DNA from: Nautiliaceae bacterium
Lineage (GTDB): Bacteria > Campylobacterota > Campylobacteria > Campylobacterales > Nautiliaceae
NCBI GenBank assembly: GCA_027062625.1
Contig: JAMOSZ010000041.1
Coordinates: 1 to 37,430 of the forward strand
DNA: 37,430 nt
Reading direction: 5' to 3'
A program made the position numbers and the translations under genes. Shown here one piece after another: positions 8,047-37,430 of this stretch (positions are counted from its first letter, which is position 1; every line of letters starts with the position of its first letter). Under the pieces are notes generated by a model. The model was not told where the DNA came from, did not search any database, and saw only the letters and a program-made list of their open reading frames with translations.

Positions 8047-8317
8047 TATTATTATTTTTAGAAGATAAAAGTCATCTTGAAGCTTTATAAAAACCTATTG
8101 ATACCAAACCATTCGCTAATCCAGACATAAATAGCTGGTACATATTAAAATCCAAACTATATCAAAATGCATACAAATATGTGAAGATTATCGCACTTAT
8201 TATGGCTACACCATTTAGTGATGTTTTTGGTAAGATTTTATAGCTTTTAACAAATCAAACCCAAGCTTGAATAAGTGGTATTAATGGTCGCATAATAATA
8301 ATTTCAGGAAATTGCAT
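8039..8317 (-). CDS. Small membrane protein, second holin-like
   Basis: This is a 92-residue protein with two or three hydrophobic segments: around residues 5-20, around 35-52 (VAIISAIIFTYLYAFGYSL) and around 58-75 (LFMSGLANGLVSIGFYKA). It has a polar Asn-rich tail and stops with TAG. The start ATG overlaps the upstream holin stop in a TAATG arrangement, a sign of coupled translation. It is followed by the basic-protein gene with an 8-nt overlap. Its size, topology and neighbours fit an accessory holin, antiholin or spanin-like partner, but no family was recognised. Confidence 0.6.
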
Positions 8318-10155: not shown

Positions 10156-10165
10156 ATGTATTATA

Positions 10166-15527: not shown

Positions 15528-16931
15528 TTATAATTTCACTATTCTGTATGCTCCTGTTTCTAAGCCTGCTAACAATGTTGCATAATGACCTCTTACTACA
15601 AACGTTCTTCCTTTCATTACCTTGTTGTATGCTATGTGGTTTGTAATATCTTCGAATTCAAGACTAGATCCAAATTTCATTAACTTACCATTTATATCAA
15701 CTCCTTCATTAGTCAATTGATATATTCATATCTTTTTTCTTGGTAAAATTACTAAGAACTTATTTCCAAATTCTTTTGAATTCTTTGCGTACTCATTCAA
15801 AATTGCATCAGTCATCCATTCAGTTGTTACTCCTGCTAATGTGTCTTCTATTTTAGTTACATCCAAATCAATATGGTGTTGTCTTTCAGTATATACATTT
15901 AATCCTCCTAATTTATACCAATTTTGAGTAATTTTCTTCAAGTAGTTATATGCTGCTGTTGTACCCACAATTGTTACTACTCCATCATCATACACTCCTG
16001 ACTCCCAAACTTCTCCAAGTATATCTATTAATTTATTTACTTTTTCATCATCTGACAATCCACTTAAATCTTCAACAAATTTATTTGAAGAACCTAATTC
16101 AGCACCCATCTTCTTAATACCAGTAATTACTCAAAGTGTTTCATTTTTTCTACCTGGTTCATCCTTTACGTTCATACCAAACCAAATGCCGTGTGCTAAG
16201 TCTCTAATCTTTTCGTGCAAGAACCAAGAAATTTTATTTTTTACATATCCTTCCACATCAGTAATTTGATATGTTTTATTTAATTCAGGAGTTGTAAAGT
16301 TTATAGTACCTACAATATTTTGGAATGCAGATTGATATTCTTTATAAGCCTTCATAGAAGAACCGTCATTATCAATCACATCATCTGGATTTTTCGCGTT
16401 AAACAAATATTTGATATAATCACCATCATTAACATTTATAGAAGCTACAGTTTTATCATCCAAAGTTCTAATGTCTGTAAGAGTAATTGTATTAGTAGCA
16501 GAATCTATTGCCGAAATTCTAGCTACATAATCTTTGCCATCAGCAGAAGAAGCAATCAACACTTTATCATCTATATCAAAATCATTAATTGTATATTGAT
16601 CATATGGCTTTACTTTAATAGAAGTTACACCACTTTGATTTCCATTAACAAGCAATGCTTTTTCCGTATATTTTTGTTCCCACCAATATAATCCCTTACC
16701 ATCTCTTGTTAATACCGGTGTAATTCCATCAATGCTTTTTGGTTTTAAAATAACTTTACTAATCTTTTGTCCATCATTAGTTAAGAATTCAACTTCTTGT
16801 GGCTCAAAGAATAAATAATCAATAGTTTTAAATCTAGATTTATACCAGCTAAAAATTGGTAACCCAATTTTAGTGTATATATTTATTAAAGTATCCAGTG
16901 TGTATGTATTAGTTGTTTTTATTTTACTCAT
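15528..16931 (-). CDS. Major capsid protein candidate
   Basis: This is a 467-residue protein placed after portal and scaffold candidates and closed by a strong terminator, the usual setting of a major capsid gene. An N-terminal helical arm is followed by a beta-rich insert at about residues 80-170 (GVTSIKVKPYDQYTIND, VARISAIDSATNTITLTDI). A helical spine comes next (KNKISWFLHEKIRDLAHGI), then VITGIKKMGAELGSSN and the C-terminal strands GRTFVVRGHYATLLAGLETG. Length and the helix/strand order suit an HK97-type shell protein, but no family signature was named with certainty. Only 2 of about 36 glycines use UGA, against more than half in a nearby tail gene, fitting high expression. It alone among the genes here has an AAAGAAG stretch about 8 nt before the ATG. 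Confidence 0.75.
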
Positions 16932-16956
16932 CTGTATTCTTCTTTAAAATCTAAAA

Positions 16957-17706
16957 TTAAATATCCAATCAATACATTTCTAAAGCAATTCTTTCTATAT
17001 CCTCATCTTCATTTTTCTGTTTTTTCTTTCAACTCATATCCTCTCATTCTATACCTTCCACATCAACTAAAGCAGTTATATCTTTCTTCCCACTCAAATA
17101 ACTAAATATGTCTTTTCCAGTAAGTTCAGTAAGCAAAGAAGCTAAGCTGTCGATTAATTCATTTTTTACTTTTTCATCGTTGGTGTTTTCAAAATTTTTA
17201 TACAATAACACCACCCCTTTCATTCTCGCTGGTATCTCGCTATATTTTGATGAACTCTGATTCTCATATTGTTCAAGTAGTTTCTCGTACTTATCTTTTA
17301 ATATATTATATTTTATTTCAAGCTCTTTCTTTTCTGTTAATAATTCTTCGTACTTTTTAAGTAAATCATCATTCAAAATATCTAATTCTTCTCAATTATT
17401 TTCTTCTTGCTTTTCTTCAACCTCTTTTTCTATTTCTTCCTCAACCTTTTTTTCTTCATTTTCTTCATTTTCTTCATTTTCTTGTTCTGGTTGTTCATTC
17501 ACTTCTTCCTTGTTTTCTTCCACCTCCTTTTCTTCATTGTTCTCAACATTTTCAACAGATTGTCACGATTGTAATTGTTCTTGTGATTCAGGTTCCGATG
17601 GTTGTCATCAAGTTTCATTAAGCCCTAAAATTTTTTCTAACTCCTCTAATGAAAACTCATCATTTTTTTTAGGTTGTGCTACAACGTTTAAGAAATCCAT
17701 TGCCAT
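16957..17706 (-). CDS. Acidic coiled-coil protein, likely scaffold
   Basis: This is a 249-residue protein. Residues about 45-115 are extremely Glu/Asn-rich, including a 9-bp tandem repeat at 17452-17484 that encodes Glu-Asn-Glu units. Residues about 115-165 form a coiled coil (LLKKYEELLTEKKELEIKYN, ILKDKYEKLLEQYE). The end is basic then acidic (GKKKQKNEDEDIERIALEMY). High acidity, a helical core and the position between portal and capsid are typical of phage scaffolding proteins; no protease motif was seen. The ATG at 17704-17706 was chosen because a second ATG two codons later gives only a shorter form. Just upstream lies a 13-nt element that recurs as both arms of a palindrome near 37.2 kb. 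Confidence 0.6.
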
Positions 17707-17764
17707 ATTGTGTAAAGTTAAAATCTAAAATCATAATAATAAATTATTTTTAAAAATCAAGATT

Positions 17765-19810
17765 TTATCAATTAAAATTCTTTATCCTTCTCAAAATATC
17801 TGATAACCCTCCTCAATACATTTGATATAACTCTCTCTTTACTTCTCTTTGTTGTTCTTTTTCAGGGCTAGGTGGTGATGGCGGTACTGGCGGTATATTA
17901 CCAGCTATTTGTGCTAACATCTCAGGTGTTATCTGAGGTTGCTCTTGTCTCTTTCCTTTATACCTTTTCTTTTGATATTCTTCCACTTTCTCTTGAGCTT
18001 CTTGTTGTGCTATTTGTCAAGTAGCTTGCAAGTTAGCTAATATCTCTTTAAACTTATCATCAGTTAACAATACATCTTGACTTATGTCAAATTTAGGAAG
18101 AATTTCTTTAAACAATTCTAATATATCAATCACTGGTCTCTGTCTTACTGGGTCGTTTGCTGCTGGTAAAGCTTGTGCAATAAATTGTATTAATTGATTT
18201 CTTTCTATTTCTTTCATTACTTCCTTCAATGTATTTGTCTCAAACACTACATCATATTGTCATATAATATCCTGCGGCTTAATCTCTTCGAATGAAACCG
18301 CTCAGTCTTCTCATAATATTCTAACCACCAATTTTTCTGGATATACCAAAGTTAATGTCAAAAGCATTTTAGGCACAATATATGAAAGCATTCTATTAAT
18401 TGAATCAGCAAGAGGCTTTAATCTTTGTTTTGTAATTTGAGCTTTCAAACTAGCTCAAGTTGCCGACCTTTCTACTGGGCTACCACCCATTGTATATTGA
18501 TTAGGTCATTCTGACAACTCTATCAAAGATTGAATTAATTGTAATGCCTGAGGTCATAAAGCTTCATTTGCCACTAAACTTATTGGCCTAATAGCTTGCT
18601 TATCATCTCTCTTTGTTAAAATTTTATATGGTTCATATTTTAACACTCAATCACCTATATCTTCTTCCATTATTGATCACTTATCCGCTTCAAACATAGG
18701 AGCTACATTTACTTTAACTTGATCGAGATAAGCATTCCAAATAATATCTGCTATCTTTTGTTGAGTCTCTAAACTAGTTCCTACTCATTTACCATAAATT
18801 GTGTCAGATGTATCATACTTCACTACTCCAAATGGATAACCATTAAACGGATAAGGACTTACATCATCATACACAACATATCAATTAAACAACACTAAAA
18901 GTTTACCATCTGGCTCATAATATTCTATAACTTCTATTAAATCATTATCATGATAATAAATTTCAAAAATATTATCCCGAGAAAAATCCTCAATATTTTG
19001 TCTCCGATATTCACTCATAAATTGAATCTGTTTAATCTTCGAATAATCCTTTTTTGAAATATAATACGGAACTTGAGTAATTGTATTTATTTGTTTCTCA
19101 GTCAAATTTATTCAAAGTAACTTTGAATATCATTGAACAGCTTTCTTTACTGGTATTATTTTTCTATGAAAAATAAATCTTGCATTTTCTATTTTTCTAG
19201 CTGCTGGGTCAATAAATAAAGAAAAAGCATCTACCATTGAAAGCGAAGGATAATAGTAGACACGCTTATATTTTCAATAAAGCTTTTTTCAATCTTTCAC
19301 TCCTTTTAAATATTCTCCTACTTCTTCTTCCTTTCTTATAATAAGTTTCACAAAACTTGTTCCTAAAAGCATAGCTTCCTTTACAGCATCAAAAATCTCA
19401 TCATTTGCTCTTCATACATCCATCATCCAAGTTAAAACTTTTTGTGCTATTTGTGCTTTCTCTTTATCATCTTCTTGCCTTGGTAAAATTTTATATGTTA
19501 CATTTGTATCATAAAAATTCGCAAATAATGTATCTACTACCATCTTTATTAATGGATACCTAACATTTGTTCTCCATTCTTGATCTAGTTCTTTCAATTG
19601 TTTTTGCCTATCTAATGTGTCTAAATAGTATGCTTTGTATATATCTACCCATTTAGGAAAATAATTCTGCTCATAAAACGAAAACACTTGCTGCAACAAA
19701 CTATATAAATATGTCCTAAATTCTACATCTTTTCAAATCATTTCAACATCTATATTTCACAATTTCTTCTTATCTTTTTCAAATTCCTTTTTTTTACTTT
19801 TTTTTGCCAT
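17765..19810 (-). CDS. Portal protein
   Basis: This is a 681-residue protein expected to form the dodecameric vertex through which DNA is packaged and ejected. The N-terminus is Lys-rich (MAKKSKKKEFEKDKKKLG). About residues 35-110 are helical, and the middle is a strand-rich stem region. About residues 300-330 read YGKGVGTSLETQQKIADIIW, and then ME-EDIG-GVLKYEPYKILT. The late wing has SPVERSATGASLKAQITKQR then LKPLADSINRML, a hallmark of portal proteins (Thr-Gly-x-Ser block before a long tunnel helix). The C-terminus is Gln/Pro-rich. Gene order (small-terminase-like, portal, scaffold, capsid) agrees. UGA encodes the Gly in several conserved positions, including SATGAS. Confidence 0.9.
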
Positions 19811-19820
19811 AACGATTATT

Positions 19821-20345
19821 TTAAGCTATAAATCAAGTATTTCAAAAAATATTTGCTATCTGTATTATCTTTTGTTGCTTACCATATCATTTTAGCTTCA
19901 TCCGTGTATTTATTAAACTATTTACTGCCTTCAAATCATACGTCCGTTCTACTGTCCCATCTTTTCACATCACTGGTATTATAGGTTTTAATCATAGTTC
20001 TAGTGCTTTTTTAAGCATCTTAAATACTGTCTCATCATCAAGCCCAACTTCATCTAACACTTTAGCGATTTTTTGTTCTAGGTGGTCTCACCCTTCAGTA
20101 GTAGTATTTGAAACTTCTCTTAACTGGTTGTTTTGTAATTTCTTTAATCAATCTTTTTGATAAGGCTGTATTTGGTCTTGCTTTATAATATCCTCTTGAA
20201 AAGTATGGTAAATACCTTGCAATTGTTGGTCTGTACCAACTTGCTGTTCATCAATATACTGGGTAATATCTTCCATAACTTCAGTGGTTTTCTCTCATAT
20301 ATTCGATGAGTGGTAAACGTTTTGCATATTTTCTGAAACTATCAT
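19821..20345 (-). CDS. Small-terminase-like protein overlapping the preceding gene
   Basis: This is a 174-residue protein (or 168 from the second ATG at 20325-20327). Its C-terminal half, KIAKVLDEVGLDDETVFKML, KKALE, and then a basic Asp-Leu-Lys stretch ending TRMKLKGYGKQQ, follows the pattern of small phage proteins often annotated as terminase small subunits: a short helical domain, a segment before an Asp-x-x-(x)-Arg/Lys helix, and an L-K-G-Y end. The N-terminal half is Gln-rich and helical. It overlaps the end of the upstream 1169-residue gene by 284 nt in another frame and is followed 10 nt later by the portal gene. The role in DNA recognition is inferred. The in-frame TAA just upstream of the start region argues against a simple fusion. 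Confidence 0.55.
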
Positions 20346-23300
20346 ATAAAGGCTTATATCTTTGGTAAGAACTATAATAATTTTTTAACATTTTTCAACC
20401 TAAGGTTCCTGCCTGTCAAGTCCCTAATTTTCATCAACTCGCTAAATCCATCACTATCATCTTTTTTCACATATCATTTATTTCTTTTCTAGCTTGCCAC
20501 AAATGATTAACTAAATTGTCTATGAGTTTTCAATATTTAGCTTTATACTCAGGATTTTTTAATATATTATCCCATAAATCCATATTTGCCATCAATACTC
20601 ACGTTTTCATAGCAAGCTTTGTAGGCTCATCCATTCATTTCATTAATGTTAAATCAGAAAGCACTTTATCTATTAGAACCATTCTCTTACCTTCATCTTT
20701 TATAGATTTTCCTATTTTAACAAAAATATTCTTCATCTTATACGCATCCCATTGTCCTCTTTTCCACATTAAATTTGATGCTAAAATATCTACAGCAATA
20801 AAACGTTTAATATCATTTGTCAACTTCCCATTTGTTTCCTTTAAAATATCTCCATACATCATTTCCATATATTTTTGAGCTGCATTTGTTAAGAAAGTAT
20901 AATCAATATAACCTAAATCTTTTGAACTAAAACTCATTAACGGAACTACCATTTTTAACACGTCTCTTTCTATTAAGAGTCTCTGTTCAGGAGTTAATTT
21001 TCTCCAACTTGTAGTTCCGAATAATTCTTTTGCTCTTGCAGATGCTAATGCATATGTATACCATCACAAAAACTTTCTTGTAGATCAAGGAGAATTAGCT
21101 TCCAACATCCCTAATATTTGCACCAATCCCTTCATATATGCTTCATTTGGTTGTCAATCAAAAGAATGATATAATTCCAACAATTTTCAATAATCTTCTG
21201 AACTTAAAGCATCTATCATCTTAGCTACCCAAATATCTTCTTGTGTATATGTTAAACTACTCTTTATTTTTTCAAAATTTCTCTTTATCTCATCTGGCAT
21301 CCATATTTGTTTCTCTGATGCTCCTTTTTCTAAAAGCCATTGAGGAGCCCATTTTGTCATTTCTTTATAAAGATAATTTATCCATTTCTCTTGAATTGCA
21401 GGAGATACTCCTGGCAAATCAACTGGCACTACTCACTCTGTTCTTATTTTCTTTAATACTACATCATCTTCAATTTTACTCATAAAATCTTTTACTTCAC
21501 TAAAATATTCTGCCCCCAATCCTCTTGTTACTCATTTAATAATTGGAAGATTATAAAGGAAATACATCCCTACATTTCTTATTCAACCCTTATCTAACCA
21601 TTTTAAAAATCACTCATAATCCTTTATTTCTCAATATTTGTCAATAAATTTATTCACATTATCTCATATTAAAAATGATGCAATATCTTTACTGCTGTGC
21701 GGTATATAATAACCAAATGTCTCATCATCAAATATACTACCTTCCAAATATCTTATATATCAAGTAAAAGCACGCTTAAATCAATTAAACAAAATGTCTT
21801 GTGCTTTACTAAAAGCTTCTTCATCACTATATCAAGCTGACTTAAACTTTGCATAAGCTGTCGCCGCTTCAACAAATGGATTTACTATTTTTAATTCTCT
21901 TAAAAATCATCTAGTTAATTCTCATATTGTTTTGTAAGCTGCAAAACCTATTGGATGTTCTTCTCAATTAGGAAATTTAAAAGTTAACCCCTCATAAATA
22001 TCTAATCAAATTCTTCATAAAATATTTGACTCAAAAGCCTGTAATGTCATATTAAACCAAGAACCTAACTTCAAAAAATATTCTACCGGATTCTCTTCTC
22101 AATCTTCATTTGTTCTTAATGCATAATCTAATCTATGTGCCCATAATACTGAATGGGCTATATTCATCCAAGCGAACAAAAAAGCCTCATCATAAAAAGA
22201 TGCTCTTAACGCTTGTAAAGCTGTTTTTACACTTCAAGTCCTTTTATACACATCTATTGCACTCCATATTGGTAAAAACGCATCTTCCAAAAAAGTTTTC
22301 ATCACATTTATTCCCCAAGTTGACATAAACCCAAACAAATACATAAATCATCTCCATTTACCTGAAGTATACTTAGACAATCACCATAAAACAGGAAAAC
22401 CTCTCATATCTTCATAATATCTTTTTACCATTCTTTTAATTATTTCTAATCCTTCTGGTGTTTGAATAAACTTTCTTAATTCATTAAAATCTTGTATCCC
22501 TAATTGTTTCATAGCCCTTATTAACGCTGCTCTTCTCAATTTTTCCACATAAAATAAATCAATCACATTATGTAATCATCATTGAGTAGCAATTAAATAT
22601 TGTCTAGCTCTTCACTTTAATTTTAATAAATCAGCAACTTTATTATATATCTTTTGAATAAAACTTCACTCAGCTCAAACTGCTGCAATATCTGCGAATA
22701 CTTCCAATTCCTCGCGTATTAACTCAGAAGGCAAAATATTAAATTCATCTAAAAACTTACCAGCCTCCTCTAATTCTTCTTTTCCAAATGAATGTAAAAG
22801 ATTATCATATGTTAATCATTGGACCAATGCCATAGCCAATCAATTTGGTGCAAACAATGTATATGCAGTAAATCTAGTTAAAGATTTAGCTTCCAATAAA
22901 AACCTCTTAATCCATCACCAAACTCACCTATATTCATTTTCAAATTTAAACCAATGCAAGTATAATTGCTTTATTTCTTCTTCTGTTAATTTCTCTAACA
23001 ATTTTTTATAAACCAAATGATTAGGTGTGCTAAACATTCAAATTAAATTCGAAAGTATCCCTTTATAATCTTCGTTTCCAAACAAAGTCCTAAAAACTCA
23101 ATATAAGTTTGCATTTTCTAGAGAAAGCAACAAATGATGCACTCCAAACTTATCAGGGATAGCAGAAACATCTACAGTTTTCAAAATATCTAACATAGTC
23201 CTTTTAGCTTGATCTTGTGCCCATTCCTTTACAAGTTTTCCATCATTTTTTCAATATGATATTACTTTATAATAAGAATAAAGCGACTGATACAATATAT

Positions 23301-23571
23301 CCAAAAATGCTTTTTCTCATTTATCTAATTTTGCAATAAATTCTTCTAAATCTTTTACATCATTTAATGCTTTTGCTCATTTATCTATTATACCAGCCCA
23401 ATACTGTCTAATTTTAAATTTTCTAGTGTCAATCGCATAATCTTTTAATTCTCTGAAACTTTTCGAAAGAATATTCATCACCCCGTCCTCTATTATAGAA
23501 AGGACAGGGCTTTTTGCTAATAAATCTACCATTCTTTCTGGTAAATGTTTACTTATAGGACAAGCTTTCAT
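20062..23571 (-). CDS. 1169-residue helical protein, partner of the giant protein
   Basis: This large, mostly helical protein follows the 3133-residue gene by 14 nt. It contains hydrophobic Trp-rich stretches, for example around residues 235-265 (FTAYTLFAPNWLAMALVQGL) and 400-440 (FMYLFGFMSTWGINVMKTFL, AFLFAWMNIAHSVLW). Around residue 650-690 is a Gly-rich stretch, GIRNVGMYFLYNLPIIKGVT. The last 95 residues are Tyr/Arg-rich and basic (GYYKARPNTALSKRLIKEIT, then KQPVKRSFKYYYGRVRPPR), lying over the out-of-frame overlap with the next gene. No catalytic motif was seen. Size, helicity and adjacency suggest an internal virion or ejection protein working with its giant neighbour. It has no clear relative that can be named by eye. 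Confidence 0.6.
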
Positions 23572-23585
23572 TAGTAGTTTTTATG

Positions 23586-26500
23586 TTATAAAATACAAGT
23601 ATATCATAACATAGCTTGTAAGTTATCAAAATCTTCCCTAATATCATTTAATAACTTAGCAAATGTTTTTATTCAATCTCCTCATTGTTTCAATTCCTCT
23701 TTCAAATTTTTAATAAAATTTCTCCAATATTTTCCTACATTATATTCTAATCATCAGAAATGGTTTTTCAATACATCTCTTAAAATGTTATATTCTTCGT
23801 CTAAATTATTTACTCCCAAAAAGACATCTTCATATCCAGTCCATTTTTCCGAATATTCAAAGACCTCTCTTTCTTCGTGCTCAATTTTTGAATATACCCT
23901 CTTAAACATATCAATCAATTTCTCTCTTGCAACAGGTGGGAAATTAATTTCTTTTCAAACTATTCTTGCTTTCTTCTCAAGTTCAGCAAAATCTATATCA
24001 CCCTTTAGTTCTTTAATCTTTTGTAATAACTTCTTCATATCCTCATCTACTCTTAACAATCATACAGTACTCAATTGCTCAAATACATCTTTATATCAAT
24101 TCAAATATGCTAAAGCCGCATCACCAATATCCTTATACAATATCTCTTCCTCTCTTCCAATATTTACTGCAGCTTTATTATTTGCCCGATCGTAAATTCT
24201 ATTAAAAATAGTGTACACTATTCATTTCGCATCTTCAACTATTTCAGAAGCTTTTCTATCAGCTGTATCCATATATTTAACTAATCATTTCAAGTATTGG
24301 TCTAACTCATCTACCAAATCTGCTATAAAATTATCATCAAAATATTCACCACCAACCTTTATTAAACTCTCAATATCATTTTTTATACTGTCATTTAATC
24401 TTCTTACAAATTCAATAGCCATAGCCTTCCTATTTAATAGTTTTATCTCATCTCACTCTTTTACAACATAATATCCATCTTTCTTTAAAAGTTTTTCTAC
24501 AACAGCTGCAAAATTTTTTCTTGCAGACCTACCAAATTCTATATCAATTGAAACATTTCTAGTATTTAACTCTTCTCAGAAAATTTTCTTCATCTCCTTC
24601 TGTATAGCTTTTCCAACCTCACCCTTATAAAAGCCTTCTGCACTTTCTATCTTACCATTTTTAATTTTAACTCCAAACAATCTTTCTACTGCACTATAAA
24701 AATCTATAAATTTCGATCTTTCCATCATCTCATTAATCGCCTTGTTATAAGCATTATATACTACCTCTGTTGGCACTTCTTTTCCAAGTCATAATAATTT
24801 AGACAATCTATTCACCTCATTTACATAATCAACATATACATCTCTTACCCACTTCAATCAACTAAATACATCATACCCACTAGCAGTCATAGATTCTATT
24901 TTCATTATTACAGACATTATTCTATTGTTTCTTTCTGCTATTGCATCATTCCTTAATCAATCTAATATTTTCTCTCATTTATTCAACTTTATAACTTTTG
25001 TACCTTCAACCTTATATTCCTTTCCTAAAAATTTAAATACATACTTATTTCTTTCTAAATGTCTCCAAATAGATAACAACTGACTATCATATCAAGCCAT
25101 AAAATTCACAAAATTAAGTGCTCTTCTATTAAGAACCACAAAATCCTTAATAGGGTGCATTATATCTAAATCTCTCAATTCTTTCAATCACCAAGCAAGA
25201 TAATTATAGAAATTGAAGTTTTCTCTTACAACGCTCACTTGTTCTTCAAAAGCTAATACAACATCATCTATATCTTCTGCTTGTCAAGGTTTTGGAAGCT
25301 TTGAAACACCTGGTAAACTTACAAACTTTTCTCTTGCATAAAGCTTTTCTAAAACATCTTTATTCGAATTCACAAAATAAACAAACATACTCCATCAATC
25401 TTCTCCTAACAATTCTCTCAACTCTCTTGCTGCTTCACTATAAGATTCTTCTGTTTCTCACATAATCTTATGTGCAAATCCTGAAAGTTTCTCTATCAAA
25501 TTATCAAATACTTCTCCAGGAATATTCCAAATCCTTTCAATTATATCTGGCAAATAATTTAGCAAAGAATAAGATAACTTAAAACCTCTTCTTTTTATAG
25601 CATTTAACATCAATTGATATTTAACAATACTAGGTGCTAATTTATTTAATGTCTTTACCCCTGCTTTTTTAAAGAATTTGATAAATGCTAAACCTCACTC
25701 TGTATCAAAAATTAAATCTGCTAAAGTATCATATAACTTCTCATCATCCATTTGATTTAAATATTCTACAATTTTATTTATCTGTGCTTCTCACAATCAT
25801 TTAGTAAATTCAAATCAACCAACCAATATATCTCTTATTATCTCCTTTCTTGAGCTATATTTAGAAGCAACTCTAAAATAATTTGCAATATCTTCTTTTA
25901 TTTGTGCTCTATAATCTAATGCTTTTATACCTGCTGGTAATAATTTATATCCTCCTAATCCTAACTCCTTACTTGCCATAAATGCAGTAGTTAAAATCTG
26001 ACTTATGTCATCACTATTTAACGTCTTTGACCACATATACAACAACTTAGAAACATTATCTGCCTTAGGCATAATTCACTCACCTAGTTTCTTCACTGCT
26101 TCCTCGTAAATCTTCACATACTTTTCAATTGTACTAGGAGTTATATAAGCTTTCACATTTTCTAACAAAAGATTATATAAATTTTCCGCCATCATATCAC
26201 TATCAAAACCAAATCTCCTTATTCAAGCCGCAAATAATTCAGGAGTCAAATTTCTTCTTCTTAAGAAATCTTCTACAAAATCTTCCATTCAAGATTGTAT
26301 AACATCTTTCATTAACCAATGAAACTTTCCACTATCAAACATATTAAGTAATATTTTAGACAACACATAATTTAATTTTTCCTTATCTACCTTCAACTTT
26401 ACTAATCAAGATGTTTTTAATAAATCATCTATTAAATTGTTCGCTATTCTATTTTGTAATCATTTTATTGTTTCTAATATTCATTCGTTCATTATCTTTC

Positions 26501-29500
26501 TAGCATCTTCTATTACCTCATCTGGCACTCTACTTTCTTTTATGTATTTTTCTACTACATTCTTAAATATTTGGTCTGCAAATTCTCCTACTTTAAATGT
26601 AGCCAATCATTTTTGAAGTACCTTTTGAGGCTGCCAATTTCATTTAATTATCTTCAAATATTTTTCCACATCACTAGCTAACAACTTGTTTAATCCAGAG
26701 AAACTCTCAATCTCAAAACCTCTCTTTAACGTGTTTTCTATAATATCCAACAAATATTGGTAATAATCAAATTCTTTTTCTTCTCAACCTCCACGTTTAA
26801 AAACTCTTAATCCACTTAAATCAATATTTAATACTGCCTCACTAAGTCCTTCTAATTTATTAAACATATCTTCTCATATTTTTGAAAATGGCATTACATA
26901 CACTCAATTTATATCTCCATCCTTAATTACAAAGAAAGAGAAATTAGGATTTTCAGTATTTCCTAAAAATTCAACTAATCCTTTAAATTTATTTTTAAAA
27001 TTCACAAAATCTGCTCTTGAACCTATATATACCACACGCTTATTTTTATATTTATTCTTCTCTTTTAATACAACTTCTTCAGGAAGAGCTTTTATTCTCA
27101 CTGCTCTTGTATCTCATTTTAATATTTGCTGATATGCTCTGAAATGTTGTAAAATATTATCTCATCAAACTGACAACCCTTCTATATCTAATTTTGTTAT
27201 CGCTGCTCAATCTCCATAAACAAATACTATTCATTCCTTTTTTGCTTCCTCCATCATAGTTTTATATAACCAACTTGTTTCTTCATCAAACTGTTTGTCT
27301 ACAATACTTAAGAATGCATACGCAATATCATCTTTCAATGTCTTAATCTCACCACTAACAAAATTCTCATTTAAGTTTTTTACTTCCTTAGTTTCTGTTT
27401 TTGCTGTTGTTATTGCTTTATCCAACAAATACTCTACTTCTCACTTACTTAAACCTCATTCTAAGAATCTCACAAATATATTATTTATCTTTCTTCCAAC
27501 CCAATATAATTCATTAGTTACAGGCTCATCCTTCAATTTCTTTACACTTGAACTTAAATATGACCTTACTAATTTATCAAATCCCTTAAATTTATCTAGT
27601 ACTGTATTCAAATATTTTTCAATAATTGTATTAGCCATTTTTTCTCCAAAGACTGCTTTTACTACTTTTTCCAATCAATTTATATCAAGCTTTCTCTTTC
27701 ATAACTTAGCAGCTACATACAAAGCAGTAGTAAAGAAATTAGCAGCTAAATACTTATCAGCCACATCTCTACCAAAATTAATAGACATTGATAGATAATC
27801 CGCCTGTATTTCTTCATACACTCTCACATCAGAATAATATGCTGTTAAAACTCTTTCAAAATCTTTATGTTCGTCAATTAAATTGTTTAACTTCTCAAGA
27901 AAATCCATACTAGGATTACCCAAGCCTGGCAAATAACTATATTGATGAGCTTTCTCTATTTCTTCCGTTATCTTTCCTCACTTCTCCAACATATCATAAA
28001 GAATATGTTGTCCTGTCTTAGCTCTCTCTATACCGAACAACCTTTGAAATAAATGTGCTATTTCATGAGCCAAAACAAACAAAGGATCTTTTTCTACAAG
28101 GTCTATCAAATATGGAGTAGAATAATAAGCATTAGTAAAAGCAACTCATCAATCCAACTCCATTATCTTCTCTAACAATTTTTCTCATTGTAAGCTTAAA
28201 ATTTCATCTGTAAATCTCTTTACTCATCCATATAAATGTGCTAATGCTAAAGTCCTTGCATACCTTCATTCACCAGCTATAGAATCAACTAACATATCAA
28301 AATACTTAACATATTGTTCCTTAGCAATTGCTTTTAACTCAGGTACATATTCTTCAGCCCAATGTGCCCTTAACATAGCTTCTACATATTCATCAAACAA
28401 TATCTCTTTTAATTTATTCACATCAACTTTATCAAAATATTGTTTCAAATTCTCAAATCCTTTTATTAATTTTTCTGCCTTCTTTGTTCATAAAAGCAAT
28501 TTAAGTTGAACTTCTGAAACAAAACCATTTAACATCTTCTCTTCAAAATCTCCTAATGTACCAAATATTTTTCTTATTACTTCAATATCTTCCTTTGATA
28601 AACTAAGAATCAACTTTGTATATTCATTCAAAAAATTACTTATCTCTTCTCAAAGCTCTTTTCCAATCCTAGCTTCCAATTTTTCAGCCAACAATTTATT
28701 CCACAAAAATGCTGAAACAGTATTTCTAACATATGTAAACTTTAATTTTCAATAACTATCTAAACTTAATAAATATTTGTCATTTATCTTCTTTACTAAC
28801 TTTGGCTTTAATTCCTTTTCAAAAACCTCCATTATTTTCGATACAAACTCTATCACCTCTTTATCTCACTCTACCAACAAACTTCTAAAATAATTATACA
28901 ATCAAGTATCTTGTATAAAAGTCAACATCGAAGGAATAAATTTCTTATATGCTACTTCTTTTATCAAAGAATTAAAATCCTCCACTTTATTCACAAAACT
29001 CACTAAACTATTTCTTACATAATCTGGAGCTCCCACTTCAACCAATGTTTGTAATTTATTTTTTATTACATCTATATTAAATAATCCAACTTCCTTCGGT
29101 CTTATCACTCAAAGTCTACTAGCTATTACTTTATCTATTTGAGCAGTTGTCTGAGCTCTAATCACCTCACCAAAAAATCATTTTCTTTGTAATAATGGCA
29201 AAAATTCTGCTAATACTTTTTCAAATGGTTGTCCTTTAATTTTTCACCATCTAGTTAACAATTTGACATATCTTCTCAATATAAACGTCAATGCATTATT
29301 TGTTCATTTTCTCAATGTATACATCAATTTTCTTTTGAATTTCTCTGCAGCATCTTCTCAAGTTATCATATACTCTGTCCCATATTTCTTTGCAACATCC
29401 AAATTCAAAATATTACTTATAAAAGTATCTGCCAACTCTTCATCTAATCCTAAAACATCAGTCAAATATTTTCTAAACACTTCTAATGGTTCGCTATTAA

Positions 29501-32500
29501 ATTTATATAACAAAAGTCTAGAAATAAAATCCAATCACACTGCTTCTAATCAAATATTTGATTTCACTATTAATTTCCCTCCTTCTTCTTTTAGAGGTAC
29601 TATTTCTTCCGCAAGTTGCTCTCATACTTTACCCAATTTAGGTGAAACTTCTGCCAATTTATCTGCTGATTTTTTCACTAATTTTTTATATTTTTTCTGT
29701 AATTCTAAAACTCTTTTATGAGCCTTCTCTAACTCTTCTAGTTTCAAATCAGGTATTAATTCATCTTCTGCGTGTATCTTTCTTGCCAACCCTTCAATAT
29801 CTTTTCTCTTAAGTTTTTTACCAAATCCTTCAACCAACGCTTTTTTAATATATTTCTCCCCATCTTCTTCAAATGCATTTAATACTCTCTTAGCAATAGC
29901 ATACCTATCAGCTTTTGTTAATGCTCTTGCATATGCTATCTTAAATGGAGAATCTACCTGCGACAAATAATCTCTTATTTCATCAGCAATAACATTAGTT
30001 AAATTAATTCTATCCAATTTTCACATATCTTTTAATTTCTTTCATTTTTCTGCTTCAAAATTCTTAATTACTTGTCTTACTCTATTTTCTAATTCTCCAA
30101 ATTCAGGTAATCTCTCAAAATCTCATCTAATCCTTGTTCAATCAGTAAACACTATTTGTTTACCTTTTCCACTACCATCTTTTATTACACTACCAGCTAC
30201 TTTACCTTCGTATTTTCAAACTCACTTAGATACTGCTGTTCCTTCCACAACATCCATAATCTCTGCCAAATTATTTACTTTATTCAATTTTTGCATCTTG
30301 CTTCCTATTACAGCTTTTTCTTTTTCAATTTTTTGTTTATAAGCCACTAATTCATTTTTAACTTGCTCAGCTCTTTCCCCTAACTTCTGTGCTATTACTC
30401 CTCCCTCATCAATATTTTTTATCACTGCATCAACTACATTCATTATTCTGTTTGCTGCTATCTCCTTTGTCAACAAACTCTTATAAGCAGTATATTTCAT
30501 TAAATCAACAAAAGCCTTGTCTCCATACTCCTTATTATATTTCTTCAAAACAGCTAACATAGCTGGATATTTATCCAATTCCACTCCAGCTTCTCTCAAA
30601 TATTCAAAAGTCTTAGGGTCATCTAACAACTCACTTGGTGATAGACTAGGTGTTCTTGTTCCTCAAAGTTTTCTCCATATTCCTCACAATCAATGTAACA
30701 ATCAAGAAGCAGCTATAGACACTATCGGATCAAGTTCAGGGTCTAATTCAACTCAATGACTCGACATATAATTAGCTACTGCCGCATCCATAATAATTCA
30801 ATCCCAAACTGTTTTTACTGCCCAATCTCATTTTCATATTACCCACGTAGCTACTGAACCTAATTTTGTACTTTTGGCATTCTCTAAAATTCTAGAAAAA
30901 TTAGTAAACGCCCATCTTCCTATCTTCGATTGCTTCCCCCACTTACTCAATCAACTCAAAAATTTTCCTAAACTAGTAATTTTCCCTGCTTTCGCAGCTA
31001 ATCATAGTCATTCAGTACTAAATACTGTTGTTCATATACCTACGCCATAGTGTAATAATTTTGTTGCAGTATTCCACAAACTTTCATCATCTGTATCTAC
31101 ACCTGCATAATGAAATGCCAAATCATCAGAAACTGTCCCAAAACCTCTTTCTATCGCAGACTGGATAAGATTAAATCCTGCTCAAACAAAATCTAAAGCC
31201 CCAAAAACCTTTCAATAAATTTTTGCCAATTTGTCATCTGTATGATCATATAATATTTTATTAGCCTTATCTTGCACTTCATCAAAAATATTTCATCAAG
31301 TCCAACTCTTTTTAACTGCATCACTTATATCATTAGGAGCTTCCTCTCAATTAGCTATACTCCAATAATGTTTCCAAACCTCCGCAAAATCTTCTCCCTC
31401 TTGTCATAATGCTTTATAATAAATATATGCTGTTTTTGCTTTTATTAATTTCTTCAAAGTTTCCTCCGCATCTTTATAAGTCTTCATAAAATCATTATAC
31501 TCATCATAACCTATTTTCCTATCTTTGTACATCTTCTCTATTTTTTCCTTCGCTTCTTCTATTTGTGTATAATATTCTCTCTCTTGTTGTAACTTAGTAG
31601 TTGTCCATTTTTCAAATTTTGTATAACCCTTGCTATCTAACAATTGATGAACTCTATCCTCAGTCATAAACTCATTTATTATTCCATCAACTCCTTTATT
31701 AACTCTATTTTCTATCTCTACTTCGTGTTTTTTCAAATTAGCCTGTACTAATTTATACTTACTAACATCTCTCATATACTTCAAAATTTGCTTCCTCGAA
31801 TTCTCATCATATCCATCCAATGAACTATACTGCAGAACTATTTTAGCCTTCTCAATAGGATCTGACGCATAAGGTAAATTATATTTGTCTCTTACCTCAT
31901 CATAAATCTTTTCAAAATCCTTCAAATTATCTTTATACATATAATTAATTTTGTTTTTCAAATCATTTAATGCATAAGTTAAATTTACAACAAAACTATG
32001 GTCATCTCATTGATAACCTATTCTTTCCTTTGCTTCTTGGATACTTATTTTATTGTCTTGCAAATCTCTATAAACATTCAATAATCCCTCAAAGGTTCCC
32101 AATGTCTCTATAAATTGTTTTGTATTTCTAACCTTCTTAAAAGTATAATCTACTCTTGATGATAAATCTAAAAACTTCTGTAAATCTTTATTTTGTTCTT
32201 GCTGAGCTTGTAAATATTGCTGAAACGCAGTTTCTCACTTTATTCAAAAAGAAAAGAAAGACGCCTGTTCCTCATTCAGCTTTTTCTCCAAAACTTCTTT
32301 TTTCGCCAATAAATCTTGATACTCTGGATTTATATTTCTATCTAATTCATCCATATTAGAAAATTTATTCAAACTATCAAGCACATTTTGATATTGACTC
32401 ATCAAATATTGATACTCCATCGCCTTTTCTGCTGTTTCTTTTGCTAACTCCTCATCTCATCAAAATTTATTCTTTAACTCTTTAACTATATTCTGTATCT

Positions 32501-32987
32501 CTTCTTGTTTCCTTTGTTTCTCTTCTTTATACATTTCATCAATATCTTCCTCTGCTGTTTTATATTTATTCACATACTCCGCATATGGGTTCAATCCCTT
32601 TGTTAAATCAGATAAATTAGTCCCTGCCCCAAATAATGCATTATTAGAAAAATCCTCAGGATTTAACCCTAGATTCTCTCCTGAGAATATCGGCTGAATT
32701 TGTTGTTGTTGCTGTTGTTCTTGAGTCGGTTGTTGTTGTATCTGTTGTTGAAGCTGATTAAAAAACTGTTGTTCTTGACTCTCTTCTTTAGGTTGTTGTG
32801 CTTCCTCAGATTGTTGTGCTTCCTCCTGCATTTTCTGTAAAACTTCCTGTGGAGCTTGACTTACTCCTTGTTCAGGTTGAGATTGTCCACCAGAAACTTC
32901 CTGCATAACCTCTTGTGGATTAGTTATCATCTCTTCTTGCTGTTGAGCTATTTGGTTTCAAAATAAAGGTTGCTTGTTTTCTGCCAT
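23586..32987 (-). CDS. Giant 3133-residue protein with zinc-metallopeptidase motif
   Basis: This single open frame of 9.4 kb is seen only when UGA is read as Gly. Residues about 20-115 are Gln/Glu-rich low complexity. About 130-530 are coiled coil (including EKAKIVLQYSSLDGYDENSR). About 640-790 are Gly-rich and hydrophobic, possibly membrane-seeking. The rest is a very long helical scaffold. At residues 1633-1650 it reads DPLFVLAHEIAHLFQRLF, an HExxH zinc motif (His1641, Glu1642, His1645). About 80 residues later VYEEIQADYLSM supplies the likely third ligand Glu (1725/1726) in the E-x-x-A-D form of gluzincins. Such peptidases are known within phage polyvalent proteins. Placement between large terminase and portal genes suggests a virion protein delivered with the DNA (inference). 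Confidence 0.85.
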
Positions 32988-33028
32988 TTATAACACTTAA
33001 AATTTAAAATCCTTCTTACTTTTTATAA

Positions 33029-35365
33029 CTAAAATCAAAAAGTTTTCAATAAATTTTTCACCTTGCTACTATACTCCCTCCTCCTCTGTCTCTCTTCTTC
33101 TTTTGCTTTTAGTTCCTCTAAATACTCCCGTGTTATTCTAGCTATTTCATCTGCTTTATCAACTTTATTAATATGTGTTTTCATTTTCAATGCATCAATC
33201 TCATACGCCGAAAATATTGCTATCATCATCGCATTCACCAAATCATCGTGCCCTTTCTCAGCTTCATATTTTATTTGTCCAGATTGAGTTGAGTATTTTT
33301 TGAAACTATCCATCTCCTCAATAAGCTCCCTTAAACGTTTATTTATCTTTATATGCCCCTCATCGAACAATCTTTCCAACTCCATCACCATCATTCCTTT
33401 TGGTACCTTCCAAACTCAACGCTCTCTATTAATCTGATTTCAACTTGTATATACTATCGGAAAATCTACATAATACCCCTGTCTTTCAAAATCCTCAACT
33501 AAAACACGACCTATACCCGTAGCATCCACAGCTAAAAACGCATCATACATTTGTTTAAACTCCCCAACTCTCTCAACCTGCTCTCAATATCTTACATTTT
33601 GCTCCGGTGTCCAAAAGACACTATCAAAAACCTCAAAAATCAATTTACCTACATCGTTATAATAAACTCCAACAAATACTACCGCCGCATTATCCTGTGC
33701 TCTTGCTGGGTCGTATCATATATAAATACGTTCATATTTTTGTAATGTTCCCTCCGAATTCGGGTCTATATCAACAAGATGTCCAAAATATCTAAACACT
33801 CTCTGCTCCGAAGGGAAAATTGAATAAACCTCCGTATAATAACGTAAAGGATTAGATTGAAGCTCTTCTTTAGTTTTTTGTTTTTTATACTCCGGCAACC
33901 GCTCCACTTCATCAAGTGTAACCCTTCGTGCTACATATACGCGATATTTATAATTTAAGTCTTCAAGCTCTGTTTTAATATCACGGAGATTTTTAACAAG
34001 AAAATCCTTTCATTTTTCCGTAACCTGTTTTAAAATATCCTTCGCTTTTTCTCGGTATTCCTTATTATTGTGTTTTATCTGTTGAGTTTCTGCTCTTATT
34101 AGTAGTTGATAAAACCAATTCTTTGGTGTATTCCAATGTATTGTTGAAATAATAAACGCCCTTGACCCTTCAGAAAATATTATCGCCTTCATACTATCAT
34201 AAATATCCTCTGGAATTCTAGCAGCCTCGTCTAATATAATCAAATCAGCATATTCACCCACTCACGCTTCTTTTTCATCAGCGGAATGAAATTCAAATAC
34301 ACCAAGTTCATCTTTTGTAATTGGGTCTACATATGAAAGCTTTTGCTCTCATTGCTTCCACTGCAAAATACCAACTTTTCTAAACTCTTTAGAAACCGAT
34401 TTTAAATAATTTATCGCAGTTAAAGTCTTTTTCTGAGTAAGTCAATAATAAAGAACTCTTATTGGTTTAGGTTTCACATTATGTTTGAAAAGTTCACGAA
34501 TTCAAACTAAAGTAGACAAAAAACTTTTTCATCAACGTCTCGGACTCGCCACCACATTAACGTGCCCCCATCTCTTCAATACATCATACTGCCATCATTG
34601 AAGTATTTTTAATTTTCACTTTTTCTTCGCTTCTTCAATCTCTTTTTCCGTAAATAAATCCTTCATCATCGCAAACCTTATCTGCGGAGTATATACTCCA
34701 TAAAGCTTATATCTCTCCCCATCAAACTCCACCTCTATATCCTGCCCAATTGGTACTTCTTTAACCTGATCCTTAACTCATACTTTAATTGTTCCCAAAT
34801 TAAAATATCAATCTACCCATTCCTTAACAAGCAACCCCTCCAAATCCTGTTGTTTATAAGACACCATTCAAGCTTCATCTACAAACTCATACGGCACCTC
34901 ATACCGTTTTTCTAATTTACCACGGGACTTATCAAAAAAAACTATTTTTATCTTTCTCCATTTTGTAATCTGAAAAAACTTTCTATACACCACATACGTC
35001 ATATCATCTATCTCTCCCTCCGACGCAAGCTTCTGCACTTTCTCCATAAGATAATCCAACGGCAGCTCCTGCTCTTCCTCAATTTTATATTCTCATCTAG
35101 ACAAATTAATTCAGTCTATATTATACTCCACTCCCTCCTCTTTTGCTTTTTTATATACTTCACTGCTAACAACCGCCGCTAAAAACACTTTCCCTGCAAG
35201 CAAATAATCAACCTCACCAAGTTCAAAAAATCAAGTTTGAAACAATACTTGCCAATAATCCCACTCCTGTATCGCCTTCCTTTCCTCCGTAGTCTTTTCA
35301 GCTTCATCTATATCTCAAGTAAAAAATAATTTATCTGTTTCCCATAAAGATCTATGTAATATCAT
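33029..35365 (-). CDS. terL: Terminase large subunit (ATPase-nuclease)
   Basis: This is a 778-residue DNA-packaging motor. Walker A is at residues about 273-281, VASPRRGGKSFLS, with both central glycines encoded by adjacent UGA codons. Walker B is LIILDEAARIPE (Asp379, Glu380). The coupling region is AFIISTIHWNTPKNWFYQ. The RNase H-like nuclease starts at YIGYDPARAQDNAAVV (catalytic Asp552, its Gly a UGA), continues with FLAVDATGIGRVLVEDF, and ends with GHDDLVNAMMIAI near residue 705. The first about 255 residues precede the ATPase domain and are unusual: large terminases are commonly 400-650 residues. The start ATG is 16 nt after the upstream stop; the stop is TAG. Confidence 0.97.
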
Positions 35366-35381
35366 TTTGTGTAATTATCAT

Positions 35382-36197
35382 CTAAATTTCTATTTCCTCC
35401 GAATACAATGGGCACTCCTTCCTCCTTTTAAATTTACAATATACACACATCGGATTCTGCTTAACCTCCGCAAAATTATCAGTTACCACCGCTTTCACAT
35501 ATTCATCCAACGTATTTAACGTCCACTGCCTAACTTCTTCCTTATCCGGTTTTGATGATTGAGTTAGTACTTTCACCGTATTAGACTTCTGAAACACAAT
35601 ATAATCAAACGATATTATCTCCATATCATTCCGCATCCGAAACAAATATGGATATATTGTTTTTTGTCTTTTGTAATCAACCTTATCTCCCTTTCGTGAA
35701 GACAACGACGATGCTGTTTTAAAATCCAATATCTGCACACCACCTCCCTTTAAAAACTTTAACGCATCTAATGTTCACTTCAAATATACATCAATATTAT
35801 ATACTTTTCAATTTATCTCATCTTCAACCTCATACGGCACAATCACTGCATATGTCACCTCCACCATATCAACATCTCCCGGCTCCAAACCTTCTTTCTT
35901 AAGAAGCTCTGGTAATTGTTTTAACTGGTCTTTTATCTCTACAGGCAAAAGCGAAGACAACAAATACTGCGTATCACGCCCTAATAAATATGTTTGCAAA
36001 AAATTATGATAAATCTCCCCCACATACAATTTCTCCTTCATTCTTATCGAATCTTCCCATTGGAGATATTTATATGCAAAAGGACACTGTGAAAACGCCT
36101 CAAGCTGTGTAGCACGCACTGAAATAAGGTTAGTCAAATTATTGGTATCAACTGGTTGCGATAAAGTTATCCTGCGTTTCTGCTCAATTTTAAACAT
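35382..36197 (-). CDS. RecB/Cas4-like Fe-S exonuclease (PD-(D/E)XK)
   Basis: This is a 271-residue protein. The nuclease core reads DVYLKGTLDALKFLKGGG then VQILDFKTASSLSS: Asp144, Asp158 and Lys160 form the D...D-x-K site, with the Gly before TLDAL a UGA codon. A Cys at 38 (EAFSQCPFAYKYL) and a C-terminal set Cys251, Cys254, Cys262 (PMCVYCKFKRRKECPLY) match the one-plus-three cysteine arrangement that holds a 4Fe-4S cluster in Cas4, AddB and related nucleases. In between is the helix MKEKLYVGEIYHNFLQTYLL, which supplies the conserved G-x-x-x-H. The gene lies between the regulator and the large terminase, so end-processing, recombination or packaging-related trimming is likely. No cas genes are nearby. 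Stop is TAG. Confidence 0.85.
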
Positions 36198-36216
36198 TAT
36201 AACAAGAAGTTAGTAT

Positions 36217-36384
36217 TTAAATATCTGCCTCATTTGAGGACTCATACATTTTCTCTATAGCCTCCTCAATTATTTCTCTATATGTCTTTCCTTCTTTCTC
36301 TGCTAGTTTCTTTAATTTAAGTGCTACTTCCATTTCTAGTTCAACGTTTAACCTAAATACCAACTCTCTTCTTTTTCTTGCCAT
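36217..36384 (-). CDS. Ribbon-helix-helix DNA-binding regulator
   Basis: This is a 55-residue protein. The first segment RKRRELVFRLNVELEMEV fits the beta ribbon and first helix of the MetJ/Arc (CopG-like) fold, then LKKLAEKEGKTYREIIEEAI is the second-helix region with the short turn E-G-K-T. It ends in KMYESSNEADI and TAA. It is the first gene after a promoter placed in an array of palindromic repeats, which suggests it represses its own operon by binding them (inference). Such small regulators usually bind as dimers to tandem palindromes. No antitoxin partner gene is seen. Confidence 0.75.
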   Translation of the reverse strand: MARKRRELVFRLNVELEMEVALKLKKLAEKEGKTYREIIEEAIEKMYESSNEADI

Positions 36385-36416
36385 TGGGGTTATATTAAGA
36401 AATAAATTACAATTTC

Positions 36417-36444
36417 ATTATAAGAAATGTTTTGTGGTTTTCAA
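36417..36444 (-). promoter_or_regulatory. Strong sigma70-like leftward promoter
   Basis: On the minus strand TTGAAA (36439-36444) and TATAAT (36417-36422) are separated by 16 nt. The spacer contains an ACAAAACATTT half-site of the operator-like array. Predicted transcription would start near 36410 and give a leader of about 26 nt before the regulator ATG. The -10 is a perfect match and the -35 differs at one or two bases. This is the likely start of the nuclease-terminase-head transcript. Confidence 0.65.
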
Positions 36445-36611
36445 GTAAAATGTTTTATGTAAAACATTTTTGTCTTGCTTTATGTAAAACATTTTAAATT
36501 AAATGTTTTGTGTAAAACAATATTTAGTAAGTTTGTGTTGCGTAAAACATTTTTGATAAAATGTTTTGTGTTGTGTAATTCATTTTATAAATGTGTTGTG
36601 TAATTCATTTA
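36425..36611. repeat. Palindromic operator-like repeat array
   Basis: About seven degenerate copies of AAATGTTTT-rTGT-AAAACATTT lie in 187 bp. The best is near-perfectly symmetric at 36448-36470 (arms AAATGTTTT and AAAACATTT with a 4-nt spacer). Others, some half-sites, lie around 36425, 36480, 36500, 36535, 36558 and 36589. Two of the right-hand copies carry GTGTAATTCATTT instead of GTAAAACATTT. The array covers the leftward promoter. No gene lies within it. Confidence 0.75.
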
Positions 36612-36880
36612 AGGAAGTGGCGGAGGAAGTGGTGGTGCGGTGGTTCACCAATATAACAAATATATGCCTCCGTTTCTTAGGTTGTTGCGGAGTCGCCCCG
36701 ATATAGCGAAATTGAGCGTGGTTGGGAGAGGACATATACACCTATACAAGGTAGCCTTGGGGGGAGGTCCCCGTCTTGTTTTTGTTTATAAGTTTCTTGT
36801 AAGTTTTTTCTGCCGCAGTTTCAACAGCTCCGCGTAAACATCGCAGTACTTGTAAGTATTGGTAGCTTTGTGTTGGTATC
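36612..36880. other. Gene-free stretch with a Gly-Ser codon element
   Basis: Bases 36612-36637 are identical, over 26 nt, to the reverse strand of the tail-spike linker at 2447-2472 (codons for Gly and Ser). The frame that follows it on the plus strand stays open to about 36837 but has no ATG at its start and reads like unconstrained sequence. No other gene, RNA or motif is seen. Confidence 0.5.
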
Positions 36881-36884
36881 TTCA

Positions 36885-36995
36885 AGAGCCTCCTCGGCTG
36901 AGGCTTTAGCTCGGCGAAGCCTGGCTGACGCCAGGCTTCAGCCTCGCTTGAGCCTCAGCCTGCGGTGGCTCGGCTGCTTCGCAGCCTTATGTAGT
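36885..36995. repeat. GC-rich hairpin cluster
   Basis: A compact block of nested inverted repeats built on AGCCT/GGCT words. The clearest is 36917-36938, AAGCCTGGC-tgac-GCCAGGCTT (9-bp arms). Also GCCTC...GAGGC near 36890 and GGCTGC-ttc-GCAGCC near 36975. The block is sharply GC-richer than the rest of the window. It may be a structured RNA, an origin element or a small inserted element. Confidence 0.6.
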
Positions 36996-37192
36996 TTCGA
37001 GTGGGTGATGATATTTTTTTGTATGTGAATTAGCTTCGAGTTGTTTTTGAAAATATGTGTGTAAATGTTTTAAAACTCTAGGTCTTCTTGTTATGATTTT
37101 TTCAATTTCGGCGGTTTGATGATTAGGGTAGTATAATACACCAGGTGGAAGACAGAAACTTCGTGTAAGGCATTTTATTACGTCTGGTGTTT

Positions 37193-37222
37193 AACTTTAC
37201 ACAATGGATATTGTGTAAAGTT
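37193..37222. repeat. Perfect 13-bp inverted repeat
   Basis: Arms AACTTTACACAAT and ATTGTGTAAAGTT are separated by GGAT. The same 13-mer occurs directly before the scaffold-like gene at 17707-17719. The stem is AT-rich with no T tract, so an operator or binding site is more likely than a terminator. Between 37000 and 37192 nothing else is seen except a weak ACACCAG/CTGGTGT pair (37138-37144 and 37184-37190). Confidence 0.55.
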
Positions 37223-37266
37223 TGGAGAAACCTAAATATTATTGTGTGTTTGTTGGTTTTTGTTTC

Positions 37267-37296
37267 TTGCCGTGGTTTGTGCTGTTGCCGTGGTTT
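37267..37296. repeat. Direct repeat of a 12-mer
   Basis: TTGCCGTGGTTT occurs at 37267-37278 and again at 37285-37296, an 18-nt period. It lies between the perfect palindrome and the GC-rich tandem repeats and has no coding sense. Confidence 0.4.
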
Positions 37297-37312
37297 TCCT
37301 GATGTCTCCTCG

Positions 37313-37430
37313 GGCTAGCCTTCGTTCACGCTCGCTTTCGCTCGCGTGAACTTTCGGCTAACCCTCGTCGACATCCGCTTTCGCTCGCGTGAACTTTCGG
37401 CTAACCCTCGTCGACATCCGCTTTCGCTCG
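37313..37430. repeat. 43-bp tandem repeat with large inverted arms, to the window end
   Basis: A 43-bp unit starting GCTTTCGCTCGCGTG begins at 37334, 37377 and 37420 (the last cut by the window end). The first unit also pairs with upstream sequence: GGCTAGCC-ttc-GTTCACGC (37313-37331) against GCGTGAAC-tttc-GGCTAACC (37344-37363), an imperfect stem of about 16 pairs. The block is GC-rich. It could be an origin, a packaging or attachment site, or an assembly-boundary artefact. Confidence 0.6.

Follow-up and report, generated by a model that had tools for sequence, protein, structure and literature searches.

The window, i.e., the whole 37,430-nucleotide stretch analysed here, is the complete 37.4-kb contig C41 of a genome bin. 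It raises two questions: what the codon UGA means in its genes, and in which organism those genes are read. The first-pass annotation had proposed that UGA is glycine (translation table 25), starting from the P-loop of a large terminase.

The late gene block and the terminase P-loop

Positions 2–36197 are filled by 20 complete minus-strand genes and one further gene cut by the contig end. The window is the late gene block of a tailed phage and holds most of its late half, comprising terminase, portal, probable scaffold and capsid, tail and fibre genes, holins, an SLH peptidase, a phosphoesterase and a PD-(D/E)XK nuclease. The features are listed below, where g in a motif stands for UGA, and G344:C33 (66.5 kb, from a genome of the Gracilibacteria class) and G391:C84 are contigs that hold homologues.

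2–472, minus: tail gene running off the contig (architecture of G344:C33)
483–3452, minus: tail protein, 52 TGA (homologues in G344:C33 and G391:C84)
3476–5542, minus: tail-fibre-like protein, 51 TGA vs 18 GGN (phrog_892, 2.2e-7)
5589–6581, minus: calcineurin-like phosphoesterase (PF00149, 1.9e-11), with gHYHH at 5763–5777
6713–7783, minus: C39-like peptidase with SLH domain (profile match), with ATgGHAL at 7106–7120
8039–8862, minus: two holin-like genes (PF05105, 4.8e-15; phrog_1299, 7.8e-9)
8905–11422, minus: two tail/fibre-like proteins, of which 10166–11422 bears ASgNL at 10835–10849
11433–13019, minus: 528-residue protein, 22 TGA (ORF list)
13043–15432, minus: two virion genes, 14812–15432 and 13043–14812 (collinear with G344:C33)
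15528–16931, minus: probable major capsid protein, 2 TGA vs 34 GGN (position, homology to G344:C33, codon counts)
16957–17706, minus: acidic 249-residue protein, probable scaffold (position and composition)
17765–19810, minus: portal, 20 TGA (PF16510, 4.5e-22; homologues in G344:C33, E=2.7e-76, and G391:C84)
19821–20345, minus: 174-residue ORF, 8 TGA (ORF list)
20062–23571, minus: 1169-residue protein, 48 TGA (weak homologue in G344:C33)
23586–32987, minus: 3133-residue protein, 94 TGA, a quarter of the contig; from its position, likely a giant virion-internal protein
33029–35365, minus: large terminase, 778 residues, 21 in-frame TGA, stop TAG (phrog_2, PF17289, code-25 relatives)
33707–33718, minus: terminase nuclease motif UGA-Tyr-Asp-Pro (gYDP); Gly (GGN) or Ala in relatives
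34526–34540, minus: Walker A (P-loop) of the terminase, Arg-Arg-UGA-UGA-Lys (codon reading, relatives' alignment)
35382–36197, minus: PD-(D/E)XK nuclease, 2 TGA, stop TAG (PF12705, 2e-14)
36200–37430, no strand: upstream end of the late genes, largely devoid of coding sequence; bears palindromes and a 43-bp tandem repeat

The 3133-residue protein matched no family and has no counterpart in PHROGs, and PDB searches with the portal and the phosphoesterase found nothing. A single-sequence AlphaFold model of the probable capsid protein had a pLDDT of 33 and was uninformative. The listed start of the 174-residue ORF overlaps the preceding gene, and the true start is therefore probably further in. 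We note that the right end of the contig carries, at 36480–36610 and 37333–37430, palindromic repeats of the type AAATGTTTTGTGTAAAACA and a perfect 43-bp tandem repeat of 2.3 copies, within which the contig ends; these could possibly be a regulatory or replication region as well as the cause of the assembly break.

The large terminase frame matches phrog_2 (E=3.7e-25) and Terminase_6C (PF17289, E=2.6e-11), and the motifs of large terminases are all present: PRRggKS (Walker A), LIILDEAA (Walker B) and the RNase H-like nuclease motif gYDPA, with DD conserved in alignment A1. Minus-strand codons 276–280 of this frame are AGA (34538–34540), CGT (34535–34537), TGA (34532–34534), TGA (34529–34531) and AAA (34526–34528), followed by AGT, so that the Arg-Arg-UGA-UGA-Lys-Ser seen in the first-pass annotation is indeed there. 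The annotation had further taken the UGA pair for the Gly-Gly of Walker A, and this held for one of the two positions. The P-loops of relatives read VRR-TGA-TGA-KT in G344, VRRAGKT in G660 and SRQMGKS in G391; on this alignment the second UGA is the invariant Walker A glycine, whereas the first falls in a variable column occupied by Gly (TGA), Ala or Met, and the pair as such is not invariant. Adjacency of TGA codons is not special in itself, since 19 pairs occur in the genes of the window against about 15 expected; what counts is their placement in the P-loop. The other UGA sites named in that annotation, in the motifs gYDP, gHYHH, gGHAL and ASgNL, were all located at the positions listed above.

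UGA as a glycine codon

UGA is a frequent codon within the genes of C41 and ends none of them. The in-frame codons include 430 TGA, 459 GGN and 145 TGG, and of the complete genes 16 end in TAA and 4 in TAG. A count of 21 complete genes, none with a UGA stop, had been given earlier; the absence of UGA stops stands, but the number is 20, because gene 2–472 runs off the contig. Long open frames cover 0.26 of C41 in table 11 and 0.95 of it when TGA is taken as sense. The sole other contig of the bin with the same recoding is C74 (25,508 bp), and the two contigs together have 629 TGA, 689 GGN and 268 TGG codons and 61 stops (48 TAA, 13 TAG, 0 TGA).

The residue was identified in a blinded test, in which only TAA and TAG were allowed to end the frames of relatives, X stood for TGA in both query and subject, and codons were read after protein alignment. 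Opposite 165 TGA codons of the window, the relatives show glycine 53 times (36 as GGN and 17 as TGA) and tryptophan once. GGN-encoded glycine is 4.1 times more frequent there than in the background (p=4e-13), and glycine in either spelling is indistinguishable in frequency from that opposite GGN (75/199; p=0.27). Tryptophan, on the other hand, is far rarer than opposite TGG, where it occurs at 17 of 85 positions (p=4e-8). TGA columns thus behave like GGN columns and not like TGG columns, and table 4, in which UGA is tryptophan, fails this comparison.

The terminase was also scored against phrog_2 with each of the 20 residues placed at TGA. Glycine gave 89.8 bits, alanine 88.6 and serine 85.8, while tryptophan and most other residues gave no reported match; the margin between glycine and alanine is small, and it is the codon-column test that decides. 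Aligning the sigma factor encoded on C74 with its best PDB chains pairs X with the glycine of RFGI and with that of PIG(D/E/K). From these concordant alignments and scores, we conclude that UGA specifies glycine in the window phage, as in translation table 25, which upholds the original proposal.

The 19 aligned CGA/CGG codons, a small sample, comprise 4 opposite Arg and none opposite Trp, which weakly favours Gracilibacteria over Absconditabacteria, for which a change of CGA/CGG to Trp has been reported.

The share of UGA among glycine codons is low in the probable capsid genes, at 2 of 36 in the window (p=5e-8) and 1 of 34 in G344 (L207:10660–12000), compared to about half or about a quarter in the other late genes of the two phages. 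That the G344 capsid gene is equally UGA-poor suggests that UGA is avoided in highly expressed genes, and it may be a slow or error-prone glycine codon. We also note that the UGA share of a phage gene falls as its G+C rises (rho -0.57).

A second contig and code-25 relatives

C74 encodes an XPB/ResIII-type helicase, a primase-like protein, a sigma-70 region 4 protein, a nucleotidyltransferase, an AAA/kinase and a HIT/DcpS-like protein. Its replication and early proteins are dense in in-frame TGA (28 in the primase, 17 in the helicase and 11 in the sigma factor), and UGA is rarer in the outermost genes (24/106 vs 143/286, p=1e-6). The right end of C74 carries a 156-bp direct repeat (24492–24647 and 25326–25480, 85% identity).

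G344:C33 also has in-frame TGA and reads in code 25. It unites on one molecule homologues of C41 genes (terminase, with UGA UGA in its P-loop as well, portal, capsid and tail) and of C74 genes (primase and helicase), with the early and late blocks convergent, as in the window phage. C41 and C74 therefore represent one kind of phage. The arrangement suggests that the left ends of C41 and C74 face each other, and the tail gene at 2–472 probably continues toward the left end of C74; we infer that both contigs come from the same individual phage. G344:C33 differs from the window phage in having proteins of approximately 20–30% identity to it, a mesophile-like composition, a lower use of UGA, and seven tRNA genes, including one for Gly(UCA).

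A profile of four terminases (A1) matched 5 of 353 genomes in the class that holds the named Gracilibacteria, four of them with in-frame TGA (G344, G391, G660 and G423). In the bin's phylum, 297 other genomes yielded a single weak match, which had no TGA. Three of the five matched genomes had supplied part of the profile, and the fair count is that of a search with the single terminase protein, which found 3 of the 353 and none of the 297. The terminase, portal and primase had no relatives in IMG/VR or among GenBank phages, and profile A1 gave one weak match in IMG/VR.

The genome of G660 has a code-25 terminase (G660:C199:8330–10498), and its TopA match is without in-frame TGA. It may be a standard-code genome, in which case the window would possibly not be the only code-25 phage contig binned with a standard-code organism; misbinning would then be common, or else such phages cross code borders, as has been argued (PMC10746230).

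The host of the phage and its place among recoded phages

The bin comprises 1.48 Mb in 113 contigs, with completeness put at 99.9% and contamination at 0.02%. Table 11 suits its other contigs well, and it has a full-length prfB (RF2), 517 bits over the cut-off and with no stops inside. The bin organism is therefore a standard-code organism, and its release factor speaks against it as host. Within the bin, C41 and C74 stand out by their composition. Their G+C, in the low 0.30s, is similar to that of the bin. A search for a 16S gene in the bin found none; its tmRNA tag, AANNKNYSPAVARAAA, resembles those of Campylobacterota, which is a lead only.

The bin also has a CRISPR array (L097:3471–4735, G000:C66) with 18 repeats GTCGCAATCCCCTTGGCGGGTCTTTTGGTTTCCAC, in which two spacers are repeated or nearly so; the repeat was not found in IMG/VR. 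Its 17 spacers matched C41 and C74 at chance level only. A protospacer-type DNA search with window positions 16200–36197 in 288 genomes of the Gracilibacteria class gave no clear spacer-like match; the significant matches were mainly of low complexity (from the Glu/Lys-rich gene at 16957–17706), together with the homologous terminase of G344. A search of 85,000 species genomes for the IF2 pattern HVDHGKT with UGA at the P-loop glycine found 20 contigs, all titled as Gracilibacteria, Patescibacteria or uncultured or unnamed bacterium.

The proteome of the phage looks thermophile-like. Its CvP is +11, close to the +11.1 of the bin, and reaches +18 in the minus-strand genes of C74, whereas the values for related phages are -10 to +2 and those for 20 code-25 host contigs are -5 to +3; it is thus unlike that of sampled code-25 genomes. 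This points either to an unsampled thermophilic code-25 host or to infection of the bin organism. Two genomes of the Gracilibacteria class carry UGA-bearing reverse gyrase (TIGR01054): G356:C26:11391–15498 is over the cut-off, with 10 and 14 TGA in two stretches and one TAA, and G357:C18:6942–8771 is just under it, with 21 TGA. Thermophilic code-25 cells therefore probably exist. Profile A1 found no terminase related to that of the window in these two genomes, and none of the papers searched mentions reverse gyrase together with Gracilibacteria. Code-25 Gracilibacteria have been reported at deep-sea vents beside thermophiles (PMC9793634).

The reading we favour, with a probability of about 0.86, is that the window is the late contig of a table-25 tailed phage with a native code-25, probably thermophilic and unsampled host, and that it was misbinned with a standard-code thermophile. 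In this phage UGA is a sense codon for glycine, with UAA and UAG ending proteins, and the early and replication genes lie on C74 and the late genes on C41. UGA would be read, free of competition from RF2, by a tRNA-Gly of anticodon UCA that glycyl-tRNA synthetase charges; such decoding requires either a host that already reads UGA as glycine or a tRNA brought by the phage. The density of UGA in the primase, helicase and sigma factor indicates that UGA is read as glycine from early on, and so favours a native code-25 host. This would be a member of the Gracilibacteria/Absconditabacteria class, as the first-pass annotation had supposed; that is the best-supported reading, given that the code-25 relatives were found in genomes of that class. 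The phage contigs were then probably placed in the bin by error. Similar errors have been reported for Absconditabacteria contigs in Chloroflexi assemblies (PMC8629427).

Alternatively, the phage might infect the RF2-bearing, standard-code, thermophilic bin organism and impose UGA as glycine through a tRNA-Gly(UCA) of its own, bypassing RF2 after a UGA-poor first set of genes. A true host could share both contigs and a similar G+C with its phage, and the two proteomes are alike in their thermophile character. The UGA-poor outermost genes of C74 are what a code switch during infection would give, although that pattern also tracks gene G+C, and the probable capsid gene is UGA-poor, as is its G344 counterpart. 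G344:C33 carries such a tRNA, and some phages have been argued to link code-25 and standard-code bacteria (PMC10746230). However, the 62.9 kb of phage sequence shows no tRNA, and until the switch there would be no way to make the primase, helicase and sigma factor. There is no spacer match, no TGA-bearing relative in the 297 other genomes of the bin's phylum, and the contigs are outliers in composition. We consider this explanation unlikely; if true, a phage would here be recoding UGA to glycine in opposition to the code of its host.

ARAGORN and Rfam searches found no tRNA in C41 or C74, which may not be the whole phage, and no tRNA with a UCA anticodon in the bin. A search of the bin for the G344 tRNA gave one 18-bp chance match in C22, which is not a tRNA. 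In G344 the gene lies at the end of C33 (L208:16421–16494; GCGAGAG...CTCTCGC-U-CCA), a contig that has six other tRNA genes. As it sits upstream of the terminase, and C41 ends before that region, a phage-borne tRNA is also possible for the window phage. The G344 tRNA has G1:C72, C2:G71, G3:C70 and U73, the full set of glycine identity elements by the rule for glycine acceptors in PMC8629427, where tryptophan identity was scored by G73. Its U73 also counts against UGA as tryptophan (table 4), as in Mycoplasmatales and code-4 gut phages. Table 4 also opens the frames, and is the commonest bacterial UGA change (PMC8629427), but it would turn the Walker A glycine into tryptophan and lose the terminase profile match, and with tryptophan so rare opposite TGA, we regard it as scarcely credible. 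Programmed UGA readthrough in a standard-code phage, sequencing errors, or decay of a provirus would account for the presence of in-frame TGA and nothing more, and can practically be dismissed, since TGA is nearly as common as GGN, sits in glycine columns and never acts as a stop, and no TAA or TAG occurs inside genes of C41 and C74.

Gene callers using table 11 miss approximately three quarters of C41, and such contigs go unnoticed in a highly rated genome. Should the host be a thermophilic bacterium of code 25, to which the UGA-bearing reverse gyrases of the Gracilibacteria class point, both table 25 and the phages that go with it would reach hot habitats, and the window phage can serve as a probe for this unsampled host.

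Stop-recoded phages of standard-code hosts (Borges et al. 2022, as far as they are described in PMC10746230 and PMC13059738) share with the window phage the use of a stop codon as sense and its lower use in probable early genes. Those phages read TAG or TGA as Gln or Trp and have their own tRNAs, whereas in the window phage TGA is Gly, recoding extends to the replication genes, and no tRNA was found. RSA-ATP1, a patesciphage of Strigamonas methylophilicida, has been called the first reported code-25 phage with a tRNA-Gly(UCA) (PMC13059738), a gene it has in common with G344:C33 but not with the 62.9 kb of the window phage. It is a 39-kb freshwater phage. Like the window phage it is tailed, and in both it takes code 25 to read the portal and the terminase. 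The code-25 phages and prophages of Absconditabacteria and Gracilibacteria described by Liu et al. 2023 (PMC10746230) are likewise rich in in-frame TGA and almost unreadable in code 11, their phage genes appearing only in code 25. They are tied to their hosts by spacers or integration, whereas the window phage lacks a spacer link, is thermophile-like and lies in a standard-code bin. Code-25 phages have thus already been published, and the window phage is a divergent new one with a thermophile-like proteome.
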